Shown here in pieces: positions 3,116 through 26,648 of a DNA stretch of 64,000 nt. Source of the DNA: Candidatus Allofournierella excrementigallinarum (GTDB lineage Bacteria; Bacillota; Clostridia; Oscillospirales; Ruminococcaceae); contig DWXV01000055.1 of assembly GCA_019119025.1 (NCBI GenBank), forward strand, positions 1-64,000, given 5' to 3'. Each line of letters starts with the position of its first letter. Positions within the stretch are counted from its first letter, which is position 1. A program made the translations under genes and the position numbers. Below the pieces are notes generated by a model. It was not told where the DNA came from. It did no database searches and saw only the letters and a list, made by a program, of their open reading frames with translations.

Positions 3116-3160
3116 AAAACGCGCCCTTCGGGACAAAGGTTCCGAAGGGCGCGTTTTCGT
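3116..3160. terminator. Bidirectional terminator between convergent genes
   Basis: A perfect 16-bp inverted repeat (3116-3131 with 3142-3157) begins with AAAA and ends with TTTT, so it works on both strands. It separates the rightward flavin reductase gene from leftward pflA. Confidence 0.9.
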
Positions 3161-3161
3161 T

Positions 3162-3899
3162 TTATTCCGCCGGGGCGGCCAGGGGCCCCAGCGCCGCGCG
3201 GAAGGGCGCAAGGTGCTCTTCCCCCGCCGGGGGCGTGCCCTTCAGCGGGAAGGGGATGCCCAACGCCGTGTACTTTTCGATGCAGAGGGTGCGGAAGGGC
3301 AGCAGCTCCACCTTTTCCACGTTGTCATACCCCCTTGCCAGCGCCGCCAGCCGGGCCGCGGCTTCGGGGCCGTCGTTGAGGCCCGGCACCACCACGTGCC
3401 GCAGCCACACCGGGCGGCCCATTGTTCGGCAGAGGCCCAAAAACTCCAGCGTGTGGGCAAGGCTGCCGCCGGTGAAGCGGCGGTAGCCCTCTTCGGTGGT
3501 GAATTTCAAATCGGCCAGCACCAGGTCGGTGTGGGCCAGCACCTGTTCCGCGTCCGCGAGGCCCGCCGCGCCGGAGGTGTCCAGGGCGGTGTGGTAGCCC
3601 TCGGCTTTAAGGGCTTCCAGCAGCGCCGCGGCAAAGGCGCTCTGGGCCAGCGGCTCGCCCCCGGTGAGGGTGACGCCGCCCCTCTTTTTGATATAGGGCG
3701 CGCAGCGGCGCACCTTTTGCAGCACCTGCTCCACCGTAGCCTCCTGCCCGCCGCCAAAGGCCCATGTGTCCGGGTTGTGGCAGTAGGCGCAGCGCAGGGG
3801 GCACCCCTGAAAGAACACCACATAGCGCAGGCCGGGGCCGTCCACCGCCCCCATGGACTGGAAGGCGTGGACGCGGCCGGAAAGGGCGCTGTTTTCCAT
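3162..3899 (-). CDS. pflA: Pyruvate formate-lyase activating enzyme
   Basis: 245 residues of the radical SAM family. The C-x3-C-x2-C cluster motif is seen as C-PLR-C-AY-C (about residues 33-40), followed by the T-G-G-E-P SAM-binding motif near residue 80. The enzyme uses a 4Fe-4S cluster and S-adenosylmethionine to place a glycyl radical on PflB. Length agrees with the short activases (about 245 residues) dedicated to pyruvate formate-lyase. AAAGGAGG precedes the ATG. It follows pflB by 19 bp on the same strand, so enzyme and activator should be made together from the ZTP-controlled promoter. Assignment is firm because of the paired gene. Confidence 0.96.
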   Translation of the reverse strand: MENSALSGRVHAFQSMGAVDGPGLRYVVFFQGCPLRCAYCHNPDTWAFGGGQEATVEQVLQKVRRCAPYIKKRGGVTLTGGEPLAQSAFAAALLEALKAEGYHTALDTSGAAGLADAEQVLAHTDLVLADLKFTTEEGYRRFTGGSLAHTLEFLGLCRTMGRPVWLRHVVVPGLNDGPEAAARLAALARGYDNVEKVELLPFRTLCIEKYTALGIPFPLKGTPPAGEEHLAPFRAALGPLAAPAE

Positions 3900-3918: not shown

Positions 3919-6147
3919 TTACATGGCGCTGTGGAAGGTGCGGCGGATGACCTCCCGCTGCTGTTCCCGGCTGAGCTTGTGGAAGTTCACCGCGTAGCCG
4001 GAGACCCGGATGGTGAGGTTCGGGTATTTGGCGGGGTCCTCGTAGGCTTCCTCCAGCATCCGGCGGTTCATCACGTTCACGTTCAGGTGGTGGGCCATCT
4101 GGGCAAAGTAGCCGTCCAGCAGGGCCGCCAGATTGCCGCAGCGCTCGGCCTCGGTCCTGCCCAGCGCCTCGGGCAGGATGGAGAAGGTGTTGGAGATGCC
4201 GTCCTTGCAGCAGTCATACTTGAGTTTGGCCACCGAGTTGAGGCTGGCCAGCGCGCCGCTTTTCTCCCGCCCGTGCATGGGGTTCGCGCCGGGGGCGAAG
4301 GGCTCGCCCGCCTTGCGCCCGTCGGGGGTGGCGCCGGTCTTTTTGCCGTAGACCACGTTGGAGGTGATGGTGAGCACCGAAAGCGTCGGCTCGGCGTTCC
4401 GGTAAAGGGGGTGCTTTTTCAGCTCCTCAAAGAAAAGGCGGGCCTGCTCGGCGGCGATGGAGTCCACCCGGTCGTCGTCGTTGCCAAAGGCGGGGTACTC
4501 CCCTTCCACCACAAAATCGCTGATGAGGCCGGTGGCCTCGTCCCGCACGCAGCGCACCTTCGCGTATTTGATGGCGGAGAGGGAATCGGCCAGCACGCTG
4601 AGGCCCGCGATGCCGAAGGCCATGTAGCGGTGGACGTGGGTGTCGTGGAGGGCCATCTGCAATTTTTCGTAGGCGTATTTATCGTGCATATAATGGATGA
4701 CGTTCATGGTGTTGGCGTACACCTTCGCCACCCAGGCGCGGTAAAAGTCCAGCCGGCGGCAGACTTCATCATAGTCCAGATACTCGCCCTTGAACGGCTC
4801 GGTGGCCGGGCCCACCTGTTCGTTCTTCATCTCGTCCCGCCCGCCGTTGAGTGCCATGAGCAGCAGTTTGGGCAGGTTGGTGCGTGCGCCGAAGAACTGC
4901 ATGTCCCTGCCCACCCGCATGGCGGAAACACAGCAGGCGATGGCGTAGTCGTCTCCGTACACCGGGCGCATCAGGTCGTCGTTTTCGTATTGGATGGCGT
5001 CGGTGTCGCAGGAGACCTTTGCGCAAAACTCCTTGAAGCCCTCGGGCAGCGCGCCGGACCAGAGCACCGTGAGGTTGGGCTCGGGGGCGGGGCCTAAATC
5101 GTAGAGGGTGTGCAGCATCCGGAAGGAGGTCCTGGTCACCAGGGTGCGGCCGTCCAGCCCCATGCCGCCCACCGCCTCGGTGATCCACATGGGGTCGCCG
5201 CCGAACAGCTCGTTGTAGGCGGGGGTGCGCAGGTGGCGGGCCATGCGCAGCTTCATCACAAAGTGGTCCATCAGCTCCTGGGCGCCCTGCTCGGTGAGGA
5301 TGCCGGCGGTCAGGTCCCGCTCGAAGTAGATGTCCAGGAAGGTGCTCACCCGGCCCAGGCTCATGGCCGCGCCGTTCTGCTCCTTGATGGCCCCGAGGTA
5401 GCCGAAATACAGCCACTGCACCGCCTCATGGGCATTGGCGGCGGGGCGGCGGATGTCAAAGCCGTAGGCCTTCGCCATTTCCGCCAGCTTGTTCAAAAAG
5501 TCGATCTGCCGCCAGACTTCTTCAATGAGGCGGATGACTTCGTCGGTCATGGGCTGTTTGTGCAGTTCGGCCATGTCCTTTTGTTTTTCTGCCGCCAGCC
5601 TGTCCACGCCGTAGAGGGCCACCCGGCGGTAGTCGCCGATGATGCGGCCCCGGCCGTAGGCGTCCGGCAGGCCGGTGATGAGGCCGCAGTGGCGGGCGGC
5701 GCGGGTCTCGGGGCCGTAGACCCGGAACACGCCGTCGTTGTGGGTGGTGCGGTAGCGGAATTCTTCCTCGATTTTGTCCGAGAGTTTATAGCCGTAGGCC
5801 TCGCAGGCGCTGCGGGCCATGCGGATGCCGCCGAAGGGATTGACGCCCCGCTTCAGCGGCTCGTCGGTCTGCAGGCCCACGATGAGCTCGTCCTCTTTGG
5901 AAAGATACCCGGGGGCGAAGGTCAAAAGGCTCATCACCGTTTCGGTGTCCACCTTCAGCACGCCGCCCTTTTCCCGCTCGGCGGCCATCAGAGCCTCCAG
6001 TTTTTTCATCAGCCGCCTGGTGCGGGCGGTGGGCCCGGCGAGGAATTTGTCGTCGCCGGTATACGGTTTGTAGTTTTTTTGGATAAAATCCCGAACGTCG
6101 ATCTTCTCCTGCCACGCGCCGGGCGCAAAATCCCTCCACTGTTCCAT
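3919..6147 (-). CDS. pflB: Formate C-acetyltransferase (pyruvate formate-lyase)
   Basis: 742 residues, normal for the family. It converts pyruvate and CoA into acetyl-CoA and formate in anaerobic cells. The adjacent catalytic cysteines appear in I-A-CC-VSAM, and the C-terminal glycyl-radical motif is RVSGYAV, about 25 residues before the end. The ATG at 6147 is chosen because the sequence from there (MEQWRDF) matches the family N terminus; the frame upstream runs into the riboswitch. Transcription starts about 165 nt upstream at a strong promoter, and the leader carries a ZTP riboswitch. Formate from this enzyme feeds 10-formyl-tetrahydrofolate for purine synthesis, which explains that control. 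Confidence 0.97.
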
Positions 6148-6185
6148 AAAGCAAAGCCCCTTTCGGTGTGTTTTGTGCCGCCCGG

Positions 6186-6224
6186 AAAATAAAAAAGGGC
6201 AGCACCGCGTATGCGATGTTGCCC
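6186..6224 (-). terminator. Riboswitch-controlled terminator of pflB
   Basis: On the minus strand GGGCA pairs with TGCCC, continued by CA/TG and CGC/GCG pairs around a 4-nt loop, then T6-A-T4. Its 5' arm reuses the CTGGGCA segment of the ZTP aptamer, so aptamer and terminator exclude each other. This predicts an ON switch: ligand binding blocks termination. Confidence 0.85.
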
Positions 6225-6292
6225 AGACGGTCGGCATAAAACGCGCCTCACTCCCCCGTGGTCTGCCCACGAAATTCCGTCAGTTGTGAGGG
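6220..6292 (-). promoter_or_regulatory. ZTP riboswitch (pfl RNA motif)
   Basis: Read on the minus strand, the leader shows all hallmarks of the class. The P1 helix is CCTCAC with GTGAGG; an ACTGACGG strand follows; the CGTGG/CCACG hairpin is followed by GGGGAG; after a linker comes the conserved CCGTCTGGGCA. GACGG and CCGTC can form the characteristic pseudoknot. ZTP/ZMP accumulates when 10-formyl-tetrahydrofolate is short. The class is known to lie upstream of purine, folate and pfl genes. Here it sits between the pflB promoter and start codon, so formate production is predicted to rise when one-carbon units run low. Confidence 0.92.
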
Positions 6293-6319
6293 CGGTGTTT
6301 CGCTGTGAAAACAATACCC

Positions 6320-6348
6320 AGTATACAGCAGCAATTTTGCCTTGTCAA
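6320..6348 (-). promoter_or_regulatory. pflB promoter
   Basis: Minus strand TTGACA (6343-6348), a 17-bp spacer and TATACT (6320-6325). This near-consensus sigma-A promoter places the start near 6313, just upstream of the ZTP aptamer. The stop of the upstream glycosyltransferase is only 18 bp away, and I see no terminator between them. Confidence 0.9.
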
Positions 6349-6365
6349 CACACAAAATCTGCCGC

Positions 6366-8246
6366 TCAGCCCGGCATGCAGTTTTGCAGGTGGCGCAGAT
6401 CGCCGCTTTCGGAAAAGTCCTCCCGGTCGAGGGTGAGGCCGGGGTTATAGTAGGGGTCGCGGATGAGGTTCTCGCGGCCAAAGCGCTCGGTGAGGCGCTT
6501 TTGCTCGCCGGCAAAGCGGGCCTTTTTGGCCTTGTCCTTCTCGTCGGCGCCCCGGCTCTTGCTCTCGTAGTGGTAAAGCTGGGCGTAGGGGGTCCAGACC
6601 ACCCGCCAGCCGGCCCGCCTCGCCCGCAGGCAGAAATCCACGTCGTTGAAGGCCACGGTGAAGCCTTCGTCCAGGCCGTTCAGCGCGTCGAACACCTGGG
6701 CGCGCACCAGCAGGCAGGCGGCGGTGACGGCGGAAAAGTCCTGCACGGTGGCGGCGCGGAACATGTAGCCGCCGGAGGTGCGGGGGCGGTATTTATGGCT
6801 GTGGCCGGCGTAGCCGCCCAGGCCCGTGATGATGCCCGCGTGCTGGATGGTGTCGTCGGGGTAGTAGAGCATGGCCCCGCACAGCCCCACCCCCGGGCGG
6901 CTGGCCTGCATCAGCAGTTCGGTGAGCCACTCCCGGTTGATGACCTCCACGTCGTTGTTCAAAAGCAGCAGGTAGTCGCCCTTTGCCGCCTTGCGGCCGA
7001 AGTTGTTGATGGCGGAGAAGTTGAAGCCGCCCTCGGCCTTGTACTCCACCACCCGGCAGCGGGGGTAGCCCCCGGGGCCGGCGATCTTTTTGTAGTAGTC
7101 GAAGGTGGCCGCCTCTTTGGAGTTGTTCTCGATGACGATGACCTCGAAGTTATTCCAGCTGGTCTTGTTGTAGACCGAGGAGAGGCACTTTTCCAAATCA
7201 TCGGTGTGGTCCATGTTGGGGATGAGGATGCTCACCAGCGGCTCGCCCTCAATTTCATAGTCCACCTTGTAGGTGCTGGGGTAAAGGCCGTCCCGCACCT
7301 CGCCCCGCTGGCCGGTGCGCTCCAGATGGTCGGCGATGGCCTTTTTGGCCGCCCTGGCCACATAGGGTTTGGCGGCGGTGCCGCCGCTGGTGGAGCCGCC
7401 GTGCACCCGCCAGTAGTAGAGCACCTGGGGGATGTGATAGATTTGGGTCTCGTCCAGCCGGTCCGTCAAACGAAGGAACAGGTCGTGGTCCTGGCTGCCG
7501 TCGCACTCGCTGCGCTCGCCCCCCGCCTCAAAATACAGGCTGCGCTTGAAGGCGGAAAGATGGCAGATGTAGTTGCAGCAGACCAGATAGTCCGGGGCGA
7601 AGTCCGGCTTGAAGTGAGCCACGGTGGGCCGGCGGATGCTCTTTTTGAAGAGGGCCTCGTCGCTGTAAAGAAAATCCGCGCCGCTTTTGAGGATGGCCAT
7701 CTGCAGGGTGTACACCGCGTGGGGGGCCAGGATGTCGTCGTGGTCCGCCAGGGCCAGATACTCGCCGGTGGCAAGGTCGGCCGCCGCGTTGGTGTTGGCG
7801 CTGATGCCCCTGTTTTCCACCTTGACGTACTTCACCCGGTTTGCCGCCGGGGCGATTTTTTGGGCAAAGGCCGCCCGCTGGGCCACGATCTCGCCCACAT
7901 AGGCGTGGGAGGCGTCGGAGGCGTCCGCCAGGCACAGCTCCCAGCGGGTGCTGGTCTGGTCAAAGACGCTGGCAAGAAATTCCCGCAGGTACTGCTCCGG
8001 CGTGTTGTAGAGCGGCACGCAGATGCTGACCAGGGGCAGGGCTTCGCCATTGTCCCACCGGTCGGCCAGGTCCGCCCGCTGGGCCGCCAGCACCTTGCGT
8101 TTGGGCAGGTAGCGGGCCCGCTTGCCGAAGAGGCGGCGGCGGAAAAAGCCCAGCGCCCGCCGCGCCATGGCGAAGAGGCCCTCGCTCTTTAAAAGGTCGA
8201 AGGCATAGCCGAACAGCTCCCGGATGCGTTTGAGTTTGAGTTTCAT
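6366..8246 (-). CDS. Twin-domain GT2 glycosyltransferase (distal copy)
   Basis: 626 residues with two consecutive GT2 catalytic domains. The first (about 70-330) has ICVPLYNTP, ADHDD and GSQD-H-D motifs. The second (about 340-600) has ILIPNMDH, E-N-N-S, LLLNNDVEV and FNDVDFCLRARRAGW. The N terminus (about 45 residues) is strongly basic. Such two-domain proteins build repeating sugar chains on lipid carriers in O-antigen and cell-wall glycan operons. Its nearest relative is the neighbouring gene (same length and motif order), so the pair probably arose by tandem duplication. It is the last gene of the leftward glycan operon, 23 bp after its paralogue. Linkage and sugar specificities are not deducible. 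Confidence 0.88.
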   Translation of the reverse strand: MKLKLKRIRELFGYAFDLLKSEGLFAMARRALGFFRRRLFGKRARYLPKRKVLAAQRADLADRWDNGEALPLVSICVPLYNTPEQYLREFLASVFDQTSTRWELCLADASDASHAYVGEIVAQRAAFAQKIAPAANRVKYVKVENRGISANTNAAADLATGEYLALADHDDILAPHAVYTLQMAILKSGADFLYSDEALFKKSIRRPTVAHFKPDFAPDYLVCCNYICHLSAFKRSLYFEAGGERSECDGSQDHDLFLRLTDRLDETQIYHIPQVLYYWRVHGGSTSGGTAAKPYVARAAKKAIADHLERTGQRGEVRDGLYPSTYKVDYEIEGEPLVSILIPNMDHTDDLEKCLSSVYNKTSWNNFEVIVIENNSKEAATFDYYKKIAGPGGYPRCRVVEYKAEGGFNFSAINNFGRKAAKGDYLLLLNNDVEVINREWLTELLMQASRPGVGLCGAMLYYPDDTIQHAGIITGLGGYAGHSHKYRPRTSGGYMFRAATVQDFSAVTAACLLVRAQVFDALNGLDEGFTVAFNDVDFCLRARRAGWRVVWTPYAQLYHYESKSRGADEKDKAKKARFAGEQKRLTERFGRENLIRDPYYNPGLTLDREDFSESGDLRHLQNCMPG

Positions 8247-8269
8247 GGCTCATCGCCCCCAAAAGGCCC

Positions 8270-10147
8270 TTATTTCAGGCCGTAGTTTTCAAAAAGCAGG
8301 TTGAAGTGGCGGTTGTAGTAAGGGTCGCCCGCGGCGATCAGGCCGCCGTATTTTTGGATGAAGCGGGCCTTCTCCCCCTCGTAGCGGCGGGCGTTCTCGC
8401 TCAAAGTGTCCAGCCCGCGGCTCTTGCTCTCGTAGTGGTAGGCTTCGGCGTGGGGGGTGAACACATTGGTGAGGCCTTTTTCCCAAAGTTTCAGGCACAG
8501 GTCGATGTCGTTGTAGGCCACGGCGAAGTTCTCTTCGTCCAGCCCGCCCATCTCGTCGTAGAGGGCGGCCTTGACCATCAGGCAGGCGCCGGTGACCGCC
8601 AGCAGGTTCTGGGGGGTGGCCAGCCGGTAGAGGTCGCCCGCCGAGGCGCGGGGGTGGCTCTTGTGGCTGTGGCCGGCGGTGCCGTTGATGCCAAGGAACA
8701 CCCCCGCGTGCTGGATGCGGTCGTCGGGGTAATAGAGCTTCGCGCCCACGCACCCCACGTCCGGCCGCTGGCTGAACATGAGCATCTCCGCCAAAAACCC
8801 TTCGCTGAGCAGCTCGATGTCGTTGTTTAAAAGCAGCAGCTGCTCGCCCCTGGCAAAGCGGCGGGCGAAGTTGTTCACCGCCGAGAAGTTGAAGCCGCCC
8901 CCATAGGTGACCACCTGCAGCCGAGGGTACTTCTTCTTCGCCGCATCGTAATAGGCGAAGGTGGCGGGGTCGGCGGAGTTGTTCTCCGCCACGATGACCT
9001 CAAAGTTGTCGTAGCCCGCTTTGGCGTAAAGGCTGGCAAGGCAGCGGTCCAGGTCCTCGATGTGGTCCTTATTCGGGATGAGCACGCTGATAAGGGGCGC
9101 GCCGGTGAGGGCGTACTTCACCCGGTAGGCGCCGGGGCAGCCCTCGATGCGCTTTGCCGTTCCTTCCAGGCCCACCCGCGCGAGGTGGTCGTCGATGGCC
9201 TTTTCCCCTGCCGCCAGGGCGTAGGGTTTGGCCGTTATTCCGCTGGCGGTGCTGCCCGCGTGGCTGCGCCAGATGTAGAGCACATAGGGGATGTGGGCCA
9301 CCTTTTCCGCGCGCTCGGTGAGGCGCAGGATGAGCTCAAAGTCCTGGCTACCGTCGTACTCGCTGCGCTCGCCGCCGCCCGCCCGCTCAAAGAGGGGCCG
9401 GGAAAAAGCGGCCAGATGGGTGATGTAGTTGCAGCCCCGCAGATAGTCCGGCTCAAAATCGGGCTTGAAGTGATAGTCCACCAGATGCTTTAGGTCCGCC
9501 GAGAGGATGATCTCGTCGGAGTAGACGAAATCCGCCCCGGCCAGCGCTTCCCTGGCCACCCGGTAGAGGGCGTTCGGGTAGAGCAGGTCGTCGTGGTCCA
9601 GCAGGGTGAGCCAGCCGCCGGTGGCGGCATCCAGCGCCGCGTTGGTGTTGGCGGCGATGCCGCCGTTTTCCTCCAGCTTCAGGTAGCGGATGCGCCCGTC
9701 CTTTTTTGCAAAGCCCCGCGCGATGCGCCCCACTTCGCTGTGGGCGCCGTCGGAGGCGTCCGCCAGCACCAGCTCCCAGCGGGCGTAGCTTTGGGCCAGC
9801 ACGCTTTTTATCATCTGGCGCAGAAAGGGCGCGGGGGTGTTGTAAAGGGGCGCGCAGACGCTGATGACGGGGCCGGTGAGGTGTTCCGCCCGCTGGGCCT
9901 TCAGCGCCCGGCGGGTGGGCAGGTCGGCCCGGTAGCGCCAGGTGTCGCGGTGCAGCGCAAGGCGGATGCGGAACTCCACCTCCCGCCAGAGGGCCTCGAA
10001 GCCCTCCTCCCGGCCCACCCGGGCGCACCAGGCGGCCACCTGTTTGATGTGGGCGGGGTCCAGAAGGCGGCGGGCCATGCCGCCCACGCTGTCTTCACGG
10101 GCGACGTCGGCGGGCAGGGGGGCTTCCAGTTCTTTTTTGTCCGGCAT
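8270..10147 (-). CDS. Twin-domain GT2 glycosyltransferase (proximal copy)
   Basis: 625 residues and paralogous along the whole length to the gene downstream. Domain 1 has ISVCAPLYNTPAPF, LDHDD and GSQDFEL; domain 2 has VLIPNKDH, E-N-N-S, LLLNNDIEL and YNDIDLCLKLWEKG. Both domains keep the acidic residues expected for nucleotide-sugar and metal binding, so both are probably active. The ATG at 10147 follows AAAGGAG; the frame is open further upstream only because it runs antisense-like into the ABC gene. It lies between the ABC exporter genes and its paralogue, consistent with assembly of the glycan that the exporter moves out. A hairpin in the gap before it may reduce its expression relative to the exporter. 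Confidence 0.88.
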   Translation of the reverse strand: MPDKKELEAPLPADVAREDSVGGMARRLLDPAHIKQVAAWCARVGREEGFEALWREVEFRIRLALHRDTWRYRADLPTRRALKAQRAEHLTGPVISVCAPLYNTPAPFLRQMIKSVLAQSYARWELVLADASDGAHSEVGRIARGFAKKDGRIRYLKLEENGGIAANTNAALDAATGGWLTLLDHDDLLYPNALYRVAREALAGADFVYSDEIILSADLKHLVDYHFKPDFEPDYLRGCNYITHLAAFSRPLFERAGGGERSEYDGSQDFELILRLTERAEKVAHIPYVLYIWRSHAGSTASGITAKPYALAAGEKAIDDHLARVGLEGTAKRIEGCPGAYRVKYALTGAPLISVLIPNKDHIEDLDRCLASLYAKAGYDNFEVIVAENNSADPATFAYYDAAKKKYPRLQVVTYGGGFNFSAVNNFARRFARGEQLLLLNNDIELLSEGFLAEMLMFSQRPDVGCVGAKLYYPDDRIQHAGVFLGINGTAGHSHKSHPRASAGDLYRLATPQNLLAVTGACLMVKAALYDEMGGLDEENFAVAYNDIDLCLKLWEKGLTNVFTPHAEAYHYESKSRGLDTLSENARRYEGEKARFIQKYGGLIAAGDPYYNRHFNLLFENYGLK

Positions 10148-10177
10148 GGGTCGTTCTCTCCTTTGTCCCGGGCGCGC

Positions 10178-10206
10178 AAAACAGCCAGGGGGCCCGCTCC
10201 TGGCTG
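10178..10206 (-). terminator. Hairpin with short T run between ABC and GT genes
   Basis: Minus strand CAGCCAGG and CCTGGCTG form an 8-bp stem with a 9-nt loop, followed by only four T residues. This is a weak intrinsic terminator, or a processing hairpin, inside the glycan operon. It could make expression of the two glycosyltransferases lower than that of the upstream genes. Confidence 0.5.
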
Positions 10207-10215
10207 CTAAGGGTC

Positions 10216-10959
10216 TCACTCGGCGTCCCGGGTGGTGTGTTTGTAGGCGGCGCACACCTCTTCGGTGGGGCCGTTCATCTTGATGCGCCCGTGTTCCAGC
10301 CAGGCCACCTTGTTGCACATGCGCTCGATCTGCTCGATGGAGTGGCTCACCAGGATCACGGTGGTGCCGCCGCTCATCAGCTTCTGCATGCGTTCCTCGC
10401 ACTTTTGCTGGAACAAAAAGTCGCCCACGCTCAAGATCTCGTCGGCAATGAGGATGTCCGGCTTTGTGATGGTGGCGATGGCGAAGGCGATGCGGGCCAC
10501 CATGCCGCTGGAATAGTTTTTCAGCGGCACGTCCAGAAAGTCGTGCAGCTCGCTGAATTCCACGATCTCGTCGAATTTTTCCCGGATGTACTTCGGGGTG
10601 AAGCCCAGCACCGCGCCGTTCAAAAAGATGTTCTCCCGGGCGGTGAGGTCCATGTCGAAGCCCGCGCCCAGCTCGATGAGGGGGGCGATGGTGCCCCGCA
10701 CCACGCAGTTTCCGGTGGTGGGCTTGTAGACGCCGCTGATGACCTTGAGCAGGGTGGATTTGCCGCTGCCGTTCAGGCCGATGAGGCCGTAGAAGTCGCC
10801 CGGCTGCACCGTGAGGCTGACGTTTTTCAGCGCGTAGAACTCGTCGAACTTCAGCTTGCCGTGGGCGATCTGCAAAAAGTATTCCTTCAGGCTTTCGCTT
10901 TTCTCCTTGGCGAGGTTGAAGCGCATGGAGACGTCGTTTACCTGGATGATGGGTTCCAT
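10216..10959 (-). CDS. Polysaccharide ABC exporter, ATP-binding protein (Wzt/TagH-like)
   Basis: 247 residues. Walker A is GLNGSGKST, the signature region is the divergent KNYSSGM found in glycan exporters, and Walker B is D-I-L-I-A-D-E, followed by a conserved His in VLVSHS. Together with the adjacent permease it forms an ABC-2-type exporter that moves lipid-linked glycan across the membrane. The protein stops soon after the ATPase fold and lacks the extra C-terminal carbohydrate-binding domain seen in O-antigen Wzt proteins that read chain ends. It therefore resembles the short Wzt/TagH group. The ATG at 10959 follows GAGGGAGGG; the gap to the permease is 13 bp. Confidence 0.93.
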   Translation of the reverse strand: MEPIIQVNDVSMRFNLAKEKSESLKEYFLQIAHGKLKFDEFYALKNVSLTVQPGDFYGLIGLNGSGKSTLLKVISGVYKPTTGNCVVRGTIAPLIELGAGFDMDLTARENIFLNGAVLGFTPKYIREKFDEIVEFSELHDFLDVPLKNYSSGMVARIAFAIATITKPDILIADEILSVGDFLFQQKCEERMQKLMSGGTTVILVSHSIEQIERMCNKVAWLEHGRIKMNGPTEEVCAAYKHTTRDAE

Positions 10960-21287: not shown

Positions 21288-21550
21288 TGTAAACGCGCTG
21301 ACGAAGGAAAGTAGCGCCGTTTTCCCGGCACAGAGAGGGGCCCCCCGGCTGCAAGGGCCCTGCGGCGGAAACGGAGGTGAAGTTCCCTTCCGAGCGGCTT
21401 TGCTGAACCCTCAGGGCAGTAGGCAGAGACGGGCTTCTCCCCCGTTACCGGGAGTTTGAGTGTTTGCTCAACGAGCAAAAAACCGGGTGGTACCGCGGAG
21501 CGTTTGACCGGCTTCGTCCCTGTGAAAACACGGGGGCGGGGCCGTTTTTT
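21288..21550 (+). promoter_or_regulatory. T-box leader, phenylalanine-specific
   Basis: About 260 nt with T-box landmarks in order: GACGAAGGAAAGTAG at the head of Stem I, AGAGAG, a specifier region with TTC (21383-21385), CTGAACCC, a GTAGGC-type segment with GACGGG...CCCGTTAC, and the conserved GGGTGGTACCGCGG (21485-21498) followed by CTTCGTCCC. The TTC specifier is a Phe codon, and the UGGU of the T-box bulge would pair with ACCA of tRNA-Phe. Uncharged tRNA-Phe should stabilise the antiterminator and switch on the genes downstream. pheS-pheT lies about 1.6 kb further on. Confidence 0.93.
21510..21550 (+). terminator. T-box terminator
   Basis: A 15-bp stem including G-U pairs (21510-21524 with 21529-21543) around AAAA, followed by G-T6. 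Its 5' arm contains the CTTCGTCCC segment that pairs with the T-box sequence in the alternative antiterminator. Confidence 0.9.
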
Positions 21551-21576: not shown

Positions 21577-23076
21577 ATGGTAACATCCCGCAAACAGCGG
21601 CTTTTCGCCGCCCTGTGGTGCCTTTTGTGCGCCGCGGCGGCGCTGGCTGTCTGCTCCCGCTCGTCGCCCCTTTACCCCACCAACGACTGGGTCGACGCCA
21701 ACATCTATTTCACCATCGGCCGGGGCATGCTGGAGGGGCTGGTGCCCTACCGGGACCTTTTGGACCACAAGGGCCCGCTGCTCTACTTCCTCCACGCCGC
21801 GGCGGCGCTGGTGAGCGATTCCGGCTTCTTCAGCGTCTGGCTGTGGGAGGTGGCGGCGGGGGCGGCCTTTTTGTGGTTCAGCCTGCAAAGCGTGGCCCTC
21901 TTCTGCCCGCCGGGCCTCAGCCTTCTGACGGCGCCCCTGCTGGCGGGGGCGGTCTATTCCAGCCCCGCTTTCGCCCAGGGCGACAGCGCCGAGGAGCTGT
22001 GCCTGCCGTTGCTGGCCTTTTCCCTGTGGTGCCTGCTGCGGGCCTTCAGGGCGCAGGGCGCGGCGCGGCCCGGGCTCTGGCTGGTGTTCGCGAACGGCCT
22101 TGCGGCGGGGGCGGTGTTCTGGGTGAAATACACCCTGCTGGGGCTGCACTTCGCCTGGATGGCCTGCCTCGCCTTGTGGCTGTGGCTGGGGGAGAAGTCC
22201 TTTTCCGCCGCCCTCAAAGCCTGCGGGGCCTTCCTCGGCGGCATGGCGGCGGTGAGCGTGCCGGTGCTGGCGTATTTTGCCTTCCACGGCAGCCTGGGCG
22301 ATCTGTTCGCCACCTATTTTGTCACCAACTTCACCTCCTATTCCGACGCGCCCTCCAGCTGGACCGTTCCCTTTTACAACATGGCGGTGAGCGGGCTTTC
22401 CACCCTCGTTTCCAACCCGGTGTGGATGGGCCTCGCCCTTTTGGGCGGCGTGTGGTTCGTCTTCGCGCCCCGGCTGCTCAGCGGCGCCGGGCGGGCCGCT
22501 CTCGCGGCGATGGCCTTTTTCACCGCCTTCTTCATCTGGTGCGGCTCCATGGGCTGGCCCTACTACGGGCTGCCCCTGGCGGTGTTCGCCCCTCTGGGCT
22601 TTGTGCCTCTTCTCAGTCTTTTGCGGCGGCTGCCCCTGCGCTTTGAGGCCCCGCGGCTCGTCGCCGCCGGGTGCGCGGCGTGCTTTGCCGCCTCGCTGGC
22701 GCTGGAGGCGCTGGCAAGCCCCAACGTGAGCTTCATGGCCCTCAAAAAAGAGGACCTGGTGCAGACGAAGTTTGCCGCCATCATAAAGGCCGAGGGCGGC
22801 GAGAGCCTTTTGAACTACGGCTTTCTGGACGGAGGATTTTATCTTTCCAGCGGCATTTTGCCCTCCTGCCGGTTCTTCTGCCGCACGAACCTTTCCAACT
22901 GGGAAGAGCTGGAACAGCCGGTGCGGCAGATGGTGGCCGAAAACGCCTTCGACTTCATCGTCACCCGGGAGGAAGGCCCCCTCTACGAGATGGAGGGCTA
23001 CGAACTGGTGTGCACCGGGTACCAGGAGTACGACGGCGTTTTGCAGCCTTACAGCCTGTTCCGCGCAAAGGGCTGA
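21577..23076 (+). CDS. GT-C-like multi-pass membrane glycosyltransferase
   Basis: 499 residues with about ten to eleven membrane helices and a polar C-terminal domain (about 390-499). The first outer loop contains N-D-WVDANIY followed by D-HKGPLLYF, the acidic pattern of ArnT/GT39-like enzymes that use polyprenyl-phosphate sugars outside the membrane. The specific family and acceptor are unknown. GGAAGGAGG precedes the ATG. It is the first gene after the Phe T-box terminator, and only 54 bp without a visible promoter or terminator separate it from pheS. It therefore seems to be expressed as part of the phenylalanyl-tRNA synthetase operon, an unexpected place for a glycan enzyme. Confidence 0.78.
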   Translation: MVTSRKQRLFAALWCLLCAAAALAVCSRSSPLYPTNDWVDANIYFTIGRGMLEGLVPYRDLLDHKGPLLYFLHAAAALVSDSGFFSVWLWEVAAGAAFLWFSLQSVALFCPPGLSLLTAPLLAGAVYSSPAFAQGDSAEELCLPLLAFSLWCLLRAFRAQGAARPGLWLVFANGLAAGAVFWVKYTLLGLHFAWMACLALWLWLGEKSFSAALKACGAFLGGMAAVSVPVLAYFAFHGSLGDLFATYFVTNFTSYSDAPSSWTVPFYNMAVSGLSTLVSNPVWMGLALLGGVWFVFAPRLLSGAGRAALAAMAFFTAFFIWCGSMGWPYYGLPLAVFAPLGFVPLLSLLRRLPLRFEAPRLVAAGCAACFAASLALEALASPNVSFMALKKEDLVQTKFAAIIKAEGGESLLNYGFLDGGFYLSSGILPSCRFFCRTNLSNWEELEQPVRQMVAENAFDFIVTREEGPLYEMEGYELVCTGYQEYDGVLQPYSLFRAKG

Positions 23077-23130: not shown

Positions 23131-24153
23131 ATGAAAGAGGCATTGGAACAGATCCGCCGGCAGGCGGACCAGCTGATCGCCGCCGCCGGCAGTGAGAAGG
23201 CGGTGGACGAGCTGCGGGTGCGCTTTCTGGGCAAGAAAGGCGAGCTCACCGGCATTTTGAAGCAGATGGGCAGGCTTTCCGCCGAGGAGCGCCCGGTGGT
23301 GGGCGCGCTGGCCAACCAGGTGCGTGAGGAGATCGACGAGCGCATCCGCGCCCGCATGAAGGAGCTGGCGGACGCCGCCCTCGCCGCCCGCCTTGCCGGC
23401 GAGACCATCGACGTGACCCTGCCGGGCAGGCGCCCGGAGCAGGGCGGCCTGCACCCCTTCCACCTGGTGCTGAACGATTTCAAGGACATCTTCCTGGGCA
23501 TGGGCTTTGACGTGGTGGACGGCCCCGAGGTGGAGCTGGACCACTACAACTTCGAGATGCTCACCATCCCCAAGACCCACCCCGCCCGCGACACCCAGGA
23601 CACCTTCTACATCACCGAGAACATCCTGCTGCGCACCCAGACCAGCGGCATGCAGATCCGCACCATGGAAAAGCGCAAGCCCCCCATCCGCATCATCGCC
23701 CCCGGGCGGGTGTACCGCTCCGACGCGGTGGACGCCACCCACAGCCCCATCTTCCACCAGATCGAGGGCCTTGTGGTGGACGAGGGCATCACCTTCAGCG
23801 ATTTGAAGGGCACGCTGGAGGTGTTCATCAAAAAGCTCTACGGCCCCGACACCAAGGTGCGGTTCCGCCCCCATCATTTCCCCTACACTGAGCCCAGCGC
23901 CGAGATGGACATGAACTGCTTCAAGTGCGGCGGCAAGGGCTGTTCCATGTGCAAGGGCGAGGGCTGGATCGAGATCCTGGGCTGCGGCATGGTGCACCCC
24001 AAGGTGCTGGAAAACTGCGGCATCGACTCGGAGAAATACACCGGCTACGCCTTCGGCATCGGCCTGGAGCGGGTGGTCATGATGCGCTACGGCATCGACG
24101 ACATGCGCCTTCTGTACGAAAACGACCTGCGCTTCTTAAAGCAGTTTAACTGA
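23131..24153 (+). CDS. pheS: Phenylalanyl-tRNA synthetase alpha subunit
   Basis: 340 residues, the catalytic subunit of the alpha2-beta2 enzyme that charges tRNA-Phe. The N-terminal coiled-coil arm (about 1-90) precedes the class II core, which has motif 1/2 landmarks (D-F-D...HPARD-QDTFY, R[25 protein letters not shown]) and motif 3 ([16 protein letters not shown]). [15 protein letters not shown]-type cysteine cluster before motif 3 is common in Firmicutes PheS. AGAGGAGAT precedes the ATG. It lies 54 bp after the membrane glycosyltransferase and 20 bp before pheT, under the Phe T-box. Confidence 0.97.
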
Positions 24154-24173: not shown

Positions 24174-26648
24174 ATGGTATTACCCATGAACTGGGCGAAG
24201 GAATTCGCCGATCTTAACTGCTCCGCCAAGGAGATGGCCGACCGGCTCACCATGACCGGCAGCAAGGTGGAGTGCTATGAAAACGCCGCCGACGCGGTGG
24301 AGAACGTGGTCATCGGCCGCATCGAGTCCATCGTGCCTCATCCGGACTCCGACCACATGGTCATCTGCCAGGTGGAGGTGGGCCAGGCTTCCCCGCTGCA
24401 GATCGTCACCGGCGCGGCGAACCTCAAGGCAGGCGACCTTGTGCCCGTGGCGCTGGACGGCTCGAAGCTGCCCGGCGGCGTGGAGATCAAAAAAGGCGTT
24501 CTGCGGGGCGTGGAAAGCTGCGGCATGCTGTGCAGCCTGGCCGAGCTGGGCCTGACCACCCACGACTTCCCCTACGCCATCGAGAACGGCATCCTGGTGC
24601 TGGACGGGCGGGATTACCCCGAGGGCATGCCCGCCCCCGGCACCCCCGCTGTGGAGGCGCTGGGCATGGACGACGTGGTGTTTGAGTTCGAGATCACCCC
24701 CAACCGCCCCGACTGCCTGGCGGTGCGGGAGCTGGGCCGGGAGTGCGCCGCCACCTTCGGCGTGCCCTTCAAGGACCATGTTCCCGAAGTGAAGCCCGGC
24801 CACGGCAATGTGAACGGCCTTTTGAAGGTGGACATCGAGAACAGCGAGCTGTGCATGCGCTACTGCGGCGCGGTGGTGGAGAACGTGCGCGTTGCCCCCA
24901 GCCCCAAGTGGATGCGGGACCGGCTGCGGGCCTGCGGCGTGCGCCCCATCAACAACCTGGTGGACATCACCAACTATGTGATGCTGGAGTACGGCCAGCC
25001 CATGCACTGCTTTGACCACAAGTATGTGAACGGCCAGCACATCCATGTGCGCAACGCAAAGCCCGGCGAGCACATCGTCACCCTGGACGGCGTGGACCGC
25101 GCCCTCAGTGAGGAGATGCTGATCATCGCCGACGACGCGGGCCCCATCGGCGTGGCCGGCGTGATGGGCGGCGAGTACAGCGGCACCTACGAGCACACCA
25201 CCACCGTGGTGTTCGAAAGCGCCATGTTCTACGGGCCCTCCATCCGCACCACCGCCAAGAAGCTGGGCCTGCAGACCGAGGCTTCCGCCAAGTACTCCAA
25301 GGGCCTTGACCCCAACACCTGCGCCCCTGCCCTGGCCCGCGCGCTGGAGCTGGTGCAGCTGCTGGACGCCGGCGACGTGGTGGACGGCGTGGTGGACATC
25401 TACCCCGCGAAGCGCACCGAGAACCGGGTGCCCCTGCGGCCCGATGTCATCAACCGCCTGCTGGGCACCAGCCTTTCCCGCCAGGAGATGGTGGACATCC
25501 TGCTGCCTCTGGGCTTCCGCCTGGAGGGCGACGTGGTGGTCTGCCCCACCCTGCGCGACGACGTGAAACGGGACTGCGACCTGGCCGAGGAAGTGGCCCG
25601 GTATGTGGGCTACAACAAGATGCCCAGCACCCTGATGCGGGGCGTGGCCGAGGCACGGCCCACCCCCCGCCAGAGCTTTGACGAAAAGCTCACCCGCACC
25701 CTGGCGGGCTACGGCCTGTGGGAGTGCGAGACCTTCAGCTTCTACAGCGCCAAGTGCTTCGACGCCATCCACCTGCCGGAAAGCGACCCCCTGCGCAGCG
25801 CGGTGGTCATCTCCAACCCCCTGGGCGAGGACACCAGCATCATGCGCACCACCGCCCTGCCCAGCGTGATGGACGTGGTGGGGCGCAACTTCAGCGCCCG
25901 CGCCGCCGAGTGCGCGGTGTTCGAGCAGGCCACCGAGTACCTGCCCAGCGCGCTGGCGGACGAAGTGGCGGACAACGACTTCAACGACTATCCCGCCCTG
26001 TGCGAAAAGCTGGCCGCCGAGGGCAAGACCCCCAGCGACCTTTTGCCCACCGAGGTGCAGAAGCTCATCCTGGCGGCCTACGGCCCCCAGTGGGACTATC
26101 TGGCCATGAAGGGCGTGGTGGAGGGCCTGCTGGCCACCGCCGGCATCAAGGACTTCACCGTGCGGCGCAACGCCGAGGGCGCCGCCTTCCACCCGGGGCG
26201 CGCCGCCGACATCTTTGTAAAGGGCGAAAAGGTGGGCACTGTGGGCGAAGTTCATCCCGCCGTCTGCTCGAACTACGGCGTGAAGGCCCGGGTGGTGGCC
26301 GCCGACCTGAATCTCGACAAGCTGTTCGAGCTGCGGGGCGGCGAGCCTCAGTTCGCTCCGCTTCCCAAGCACCCCGCCACCAGCCGCGACCTGGCCCTGG
26401 TGGCCGACGAGACCGTGCCCGCCGCCGCGCTGGCCGGGTGCATCAAGGCGAACGCCGGCGAGAGCCTCGAAAGCCTGGCCCTCTTCGACGTCTACACCGG
26501 CGAAAAGGTGGGCGAAGGCAAAAAGAGCCTGGCCTACAACCTGGTGTTCCGCGCCGCGGACCGCACCCTCACCGACGAAGAGGTGGACGGCGCCATCCAG
26601 CGGGTGCTGAAGGCCCTGGGCGAGATGGGCGTGGCCCTGCGCAGCTGA
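24174..26648 (+). CDS. pheT: Phenylalanyl-tRNA synthetase beta subunit
   Basis: 824 residues, slightly longer than average. From N to C terminus: the tRNA-binding EMAP-like domain (about 45-155, with SIVPHPDSDHM-ICQVEVG), the B3/B4 editing region (including E-TPNRPDCLAVRELGRE), the B5 domain, a catalytically inert class II-like core, and the C-terminal anticodon-binding FDX domain with P-HPATSRDLALV. The beta subunit recognises tRNA and edits mischarged tyrosine. The first ATG has AAGGGGG upstream; a second ATG at codon 5 (MNWA) is an alternative. It is the last gene of the T-box operon; no clear terminator is visible after it. Confidence 0.97.
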   Translation: MVLPMNWAKEFADLNCSAKEMADRLTMTGSKVECYENAADAVENVVIGRIESIVPHPDSDHMVICQVEVGQASPLQIVTGAANLKAGDLVPVALDGSKLPGGVEIKKGVLRGVESCGMLCSLAELGLTTHDFPYAIENGILVLDGRDYPEGMPAPGTPAVEALGMDDVVFEFEITPNRPDCLAVRELGRECAATFGVPFKDHVPEVKPGHGNVNGLLKVDIENSELCMRYCGAVVENVRVAPSPKWMRDRLRACGVRPINNLVDITNYVMLEYGQPMHCFDHKYVNGQHIHVRNAKPGEHIVTLDGVDRALSEEMLIIADDAGPIGVAGVMGGEYSGTYEHTTTVVFESAMFYGPSIRTTAKKLGLQTEASAKYSKGLDPNTCAPALARALELVQLLDAGDVVDGVVDIYPAKRTENRVPLRPDVINRLLGTSLSRQEMVDILLPLGFRLEGDVVVCPTLRDDVKRDCDLAEEVARYVGYNKMPSTLMRGVAEARPTPRQSFDEKLTRTLAGYGLWECETFSFYSAKCFDAIHLPESDPLRSAVVISNPLGEDTSIMRTTALPSVMDVVGRNFSARAAECAVFEQATEYLPSALADEVADNDFNDYPALCEKLAAEGKTPSDLLPTEVQKLILAAYGPQWDYLAMKGVVEGLLATAGIKDFTVRRNAEGAAFHPGRAADIFVKGEKVGTVGEVHPAVCSNYGVKARVVAADLNLDKLFELRGGEPQFAPLPKHPATSRDLALVADETVPAAALAGCIKANAGESLESLALFDVYTGEKVGEGKKSLAYNLVFRAADRTLTDEEVDGAIQRVLKALGEMGVALRS

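Follow-up and report, generated by a model that had tools for sequence, protein, structure and literature searches.

The window analysed here, 64,000 nucleotides of contig DWXV01000055.1 from Candidatus Allofournierella excrementigallinarum, carries on its minus strand a promoter, an RF01750 aptamer, and an intrinsic terminator between positions 6348 and 6186, with pflB and pflA lying beyond (Table 1). The pflB gene begins with an ATG at 6147, immediately preceded by the ribosome-binding site GAAAGGGG. Both genes match their models above cut-off and follow the riboswitch directly, which confirms that pflB-pflA is its target. Another glycyl-radical enzyme in place of PFL was rejected, as TIGR01255 scores far above its cut-off and the alternatives fall far below theirs. 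Just beyond pflA, a strong stem-loop is a possible operon-end terminator. On the 5' side of the pfl operon, positions 6366-10402 of the minus strand hold two large adjoining genes for glycosyltransferase-like proteins of similar sequence (626 and about 710 aa); ABC-transporter genes follow this pair, and the region is a surface polysaccharide cluster.

Table 1. Features of the pfl leader and operon, in positions of the window; paired strands are separated by a slash.
Feature	Position	Strand	Detail
Sigma-70-type promoter TTGACA-17-TATACT	6320..6348	-	consensus scan, 11/12 positions; hexamers 6348-6343 and 6325-6320, 17 nt spacer
ZTP/ZMP aptamer RF01750 (P1, P2, P3, pseudoknot)	6214..6297	-	cmscan, 60.4 bits
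P1, CCTCAC/GTGAGG	6291-6286/6251-6246	-	
P2, CGTGG/CCACG	6271-6267/6261-6257	-	
P3, TGCC/GGCA	6236-6233/6223-6220	-	
Pseudoknot, GACGG/CCGTC	within 6284-6277/6230-6226	-	GACGG lies within ACTGACGG, 6284-6277
Intrinsic terminator hairpin	6197..6224	-	-17.6 kcal/mol; 3' arm (invader) 6208-6197
GGGCA, common to P3 3' strand and terminator 5' arm	6220..6224	-	helix/terminator analysis
Terminator U-tract TTTTTTATTTT	6186..6196	-	sequence
Strand D (GGGCGGCAC), just past U-tract	6175..6183	-	9 bp complementary to invader 6205-6197
pflB, pyruvate formate-lyase	3919..6147	-	TIGR01255, 1141 bits (cut-off 994)
pflA, PFL-activating radical SAM enzyme	3162..3899	-	TIGR02493, 257 bits (cut-off 232)
Stem-loop just beyond pflA	3116..3157		terminator scan, scored as + strand terminator

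The original prediction, made from the bare sequence and without naming a strand, had described a promoter and the aptamer motifs (P1, the conserved segments, and the pseudoknot); all of these are present, and the individual helices could be located. A promoter scan of the region returned one site against 0.4 expected, and the hexamers and their spacing are identical in three other Fournierella-clade leaders; transcription would start near 6312. The Infernal search that had been suggested as a check yielded a match to the full RF01750 model (positions 1-86; E 2.5e-7 across the 64 kb), above the gathering score of 39 bits. No other RF01750 match occurs in the 2.1 Mb assembly, and this, together with the covariance-model score, rules out a chance match. 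The P1/P2 and P3 subdomains are joined by a J1/2-L3 pseudoknot, the architecture of RF01750, and the aptamer stands 5' of one-carbon genes, the context expected of the class. The element is an ordinary further member of the known ZTP riboswitch class in its commonest setting, with the aptamer and pseudoknot of the pfl motif, its P3-overlapping terminator and pfl target, and, as predicted, its ON logic (PMC2864571; PMC7337938).

The expression platform combines a terminator 5' arm that overlaps P3 with a strong U-tract, as is characteristic of a transcriptional ON-switch. An internal A.C mismatch in the terminator stem speaks against this reading, despite the strong U-tract. An equally stable terminator arose in 2 of 200 base shufflings of the interval from the aptamer to the U-tract. 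It had been proposed that aptamer and terminator share the seven nucleotides CTGGGCA. The overlap is real; its extent, however, is the 5-nt GGGCA, because the preceding CT is unpaired in the terminator stem.

Comparison with relatives, the named ones among which put the window near Candidatus Fournierella (PflB identity 94%), extends this picture. RF01750 is present in 33/148 genomes of the family and 109/391 of the class. In a first set, all 89 aptamers were followed by a P3-overlapping terminator, which in 63 cases began precisely at the 5-nt GGGCA; in the class-wide set, 166 of 175 distinct relatives had one, and the ON-switch reading is therefore well supported. Since the search sought overlapping terminators only, shuffled leaders are the proper yardstick, and an overlapping terminator at -10 kcal/mol or better was found in 86/86 real leaders versus 354/1700 shuffled trials. 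A swap test covering 59 different 5' arms addressed the distal parts of the terminator arms, on which the aptamer places no constraint: distal arms paired at a mean of -7.1 kcal/mol with their own partner and -2.0 kcal/mol when partners were exchanged between species. Taken together, the shuffle contrast and the own-partner pairing indicate that the mutually exclusive P3/terminator design is conserved; the architecture predicted for the window is thus borne out both there and in its relatives.

Some relatives depart from the window in detail. In four leaders (L010, L014, L026, and L027; matches from 1501 to about 1583), the terminator invades the whole of P3 and the pseudoknot strand, an overlap of 16 nt compared with 5 nt in the window. 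In three others (L041, L042, and L043), aptamers 5' of pflB bear an extra G+C-rich hairpin in J1/2-P2 (GGCGG...CCGCC).

Very probably, the element is a transcriptional ZTP/ZMP ON-switch governing pflB-pflA, for which we infer the ligand response and the direction of control; the ON mechanism has been established experimentally in Clostridium beijerinckii and T. carboxydivorans (PMC10085676; PMC7337938). At low ZMP/ZTP, the terminator 3' arm would pair with GGGCA (6224-6220) and displace P3, so that the hairpin would be complete before the U-tract and transcription would stop. When 10-formyl-THF runs short, AICAR transformylase would stall and ZMP/ZTP would rise; the ligand-bound P3/pseudoknot would then keep GGGCA, RNA polymerase would read through, and PFL would be made. 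Formate from PFL could in turn be used by formate-THF ligase (Fhs) to rebuild 10-formyl-THF.

The gene content of the genome fits such a loop. It encodes Fhs, FolD, pyruvate:ferredoxin oxidoreductase (PFOR), and AICAR transformylase, and a single PFL-type glycyl-radical match was found, making this PFL the sole copy under the single RF01750 site. Given these genes, the expectation that low 10-formyl-THF (high ZTP/ZMP) raises formate output through the predicted ligand response is reasonable; the same physiological prediction was already made for the pfl motif in 2010 (PMC2864571). With PFOR available for catabolism and the single PFL under ZTP control, PFL is most simply, and probably, an anabolic formate source, a role also supported by the lack of any detected molybdopterin formate dehydrogenase domain in the genome (assembly about 98% complete). 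The AICAR transformylase is a stand-alone protein of 390 residues adjoining a PurO-type IMP cyclohydrolase (PF07826), instead of the PurH fusion usually seen; its locus lies on another contig of the same genome (L112:784-2886, minus strand, contig C47).

The original prediction missed a further strand, D, which lies past the U-tract and is complementary to the terminator 3' arm. The D:invader helix comprises 9 bp, including one G.U, and its formation would turn the U-tract into a hairpin loop. D is close in sequence to a second copy of the terminator 5' arm. A second terminator was rejected, as no U-run follows D, and a part in the termination decision is excluded because D is transcribed only after the U-tract. 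To our knowledge, expression-platform studies end at the U-tract. We found no description of a D-like strand in the open-access papers that the search covered.

Strands of this kind were sought in relatives as helices of at least 8 bp, anchored no more than 3 nt from the invader end and within 50 nt after the invader. They were detected in 26/110 pfl-linked ZTP leaders, where 4.7 were expected from swapped and 2.2 from shuffled leaders, and in only 1/55 ZTP leaders that precede genes of other kinds (Fisher p 1e-4). Positional controls gave 1/165 upstream and 3/163 at 120 nt downstream, and D-like strands followed 1/26 T-box and 0/26 fluoride-switch terminators. Against all of these controls, G+C content or terminator background as the sole cause was rejected. 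When a single leader was kept for each distinct invader arm, D was found in 12/73, a number reached in 0/20000 permutations (permuted mean 2.05). The sequence of D varies across lineages with pairing retained (e.g., L049, L075, L077, L104, and L143), as illustrated by the matching strands GTTGAATTGTCC/GGACAATTCAAC in L075 and GCTGTTTTGC/GCAAAACAGT in L104. Some matches (L022, L152, and perhaps L029) may be due to chance, by which two to five are expected. On these comparisons of sequence, the enrichment of D in pfl-linked ZTP leaders is statistically solid, and any function for it is a proposal. A read-through lock, a proposed rather than an established family, would be recognized by two features: a strand past the U-tract complementary to the invader above chance, which the enrichment supplies, and pairing of that strand with the invader in ligand-bound read-through RNA.

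The role that we tentatively favor, at a little under an even chance, is that D (6183-6175) would capture the freed invader after read-through and thereby stabilize the ON fold. A fixed-helix model for the window puts the ON fold at -18.5 kcal/mol without D and at -35.7 kcal/mol with it, compared with -32.2 kcal/mol for the OFF fold; on these values, D would turn an ON fold that is merely trapped into a stable one. Model energies of the full read-through leader lean slightly the other way, toward a terminator fold with D on the P3 5' strand (values below), so that energies by themselves do not choose between the two partners of D. In published ZTP work, the ON fold is regarded as kinetically held. 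It is conceivable, again with slightly less than even confidence, that in a subset of Clostridia pfl-linked ZTP switches a third strand renders this kinetically trapped fold stable. If so, confining such a strand to read-through RNA would make the decision permanent by simple means.

The distribution of D also invites a more sceptical reading. No D was detectable in 84 of the 110 pfl-linked leaders, and on the PflB tree its presence requires 14 changes by parsimony, at least six of them forced by well-supported branches, implying repeated gains or losses of D; within the Fournierella and Gemmiger clade, it is kept in 7/7 members. Such patchiness, in a strand transcribed too late for the termination decision, would be understandable if D were non-functional, either left over from a terminator arm that was duplicated locally or arising simply from G+C-rich leader composition, with the switch working without it. 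We consider this a serious possibility, though one clearly short of even, as it has to contend with the enrichment over swapped and shuffled leaders and its permutation support, with the match of every D to its own distinct invader (as in L075 and L104), and with the near absence of D from T-box, fluoride, and other-gene ZTP leaders.

Alternatively, D could act as a 5'-end stabilizer, the invader-D hairpin shielding the processed pflB-pflA mRNA from 5' exonuclease independently of the ligand-bound aptamer. This hairpin (-17.2 kcal/mol) would exist in read-through RNA only, a short way 5' of the pflB ribosome-binding site; the terminator hairpin, however, could do the same in read-through RNA, and protection has no need for the reuse of invader sequence, so we regard this explanation as unlikely. 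Less probable still is that in the Fournierella/Gemmiger clade the P3 5' strand is the chief partner of D in transcripts that leak through without ligand, so that D closes the OFF fold and not the ON fold: there, pairing of the post-U-tract strand with the P3 5' strand (-14.6 to -18.3) comes near that of D with the invader (-18.8 to -23.8), and the unconstrained whole-leader minimum uses it (OFF-type -61.6, with D on the P3 5' strand, versus -56.2 for ON, pseudoknot and ligand being uncounted), but such strong pairing is confined to this group, most other lineages showing a weak D:P3 5' interaction (mostly -4 to -11) beside a covarying D:invader helix of -14 to -21 in most cases.

Capture of the invader by D can be placed beside known systems. 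Relative to the pfl motif of RF01750, the aptamer is no different; the platform in the window adds D, after the U-tract, as a partner for the terminator 3' arm. Displacement of P3 by the invader is common to the window and the C. beijerinckii pfl ZTP switch (PMC10085676; PMC10687018). In the latter, the terminator stem is reported to adopt an alternative hairpin downstream (nt 101-127) once ZMP is bound, possibly helping the liganded aptamer to endure (PMC10687018). To judge from the probed transcript lengths, that hairpin appears to lie before the U-tract, whereas D lies after it and can therefore pair in read-through RNA only; D would thus reach the same end by a different route. A 2026 full-length ZTP covariation model likewise has the terminator rearranging the aptamer, with covariation support; it restricts the post-aptamer sequence to 5-35 nt, and a D-like strand could therefore not show there (PMC13273304).

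Elsewhere in the window, a T-box leader (RF00230, 100.5 bits) occupies positions 21289-21524 of the plus strand. It precedes a membrane-protein-like ORF of 499 residues without a Pfam match (21577-23076), downstream of which lie pheS (23131-24153) and a pheT-like ORF (24174-26648); the T-box may control the membrane-protein-like ORF together with pheST.
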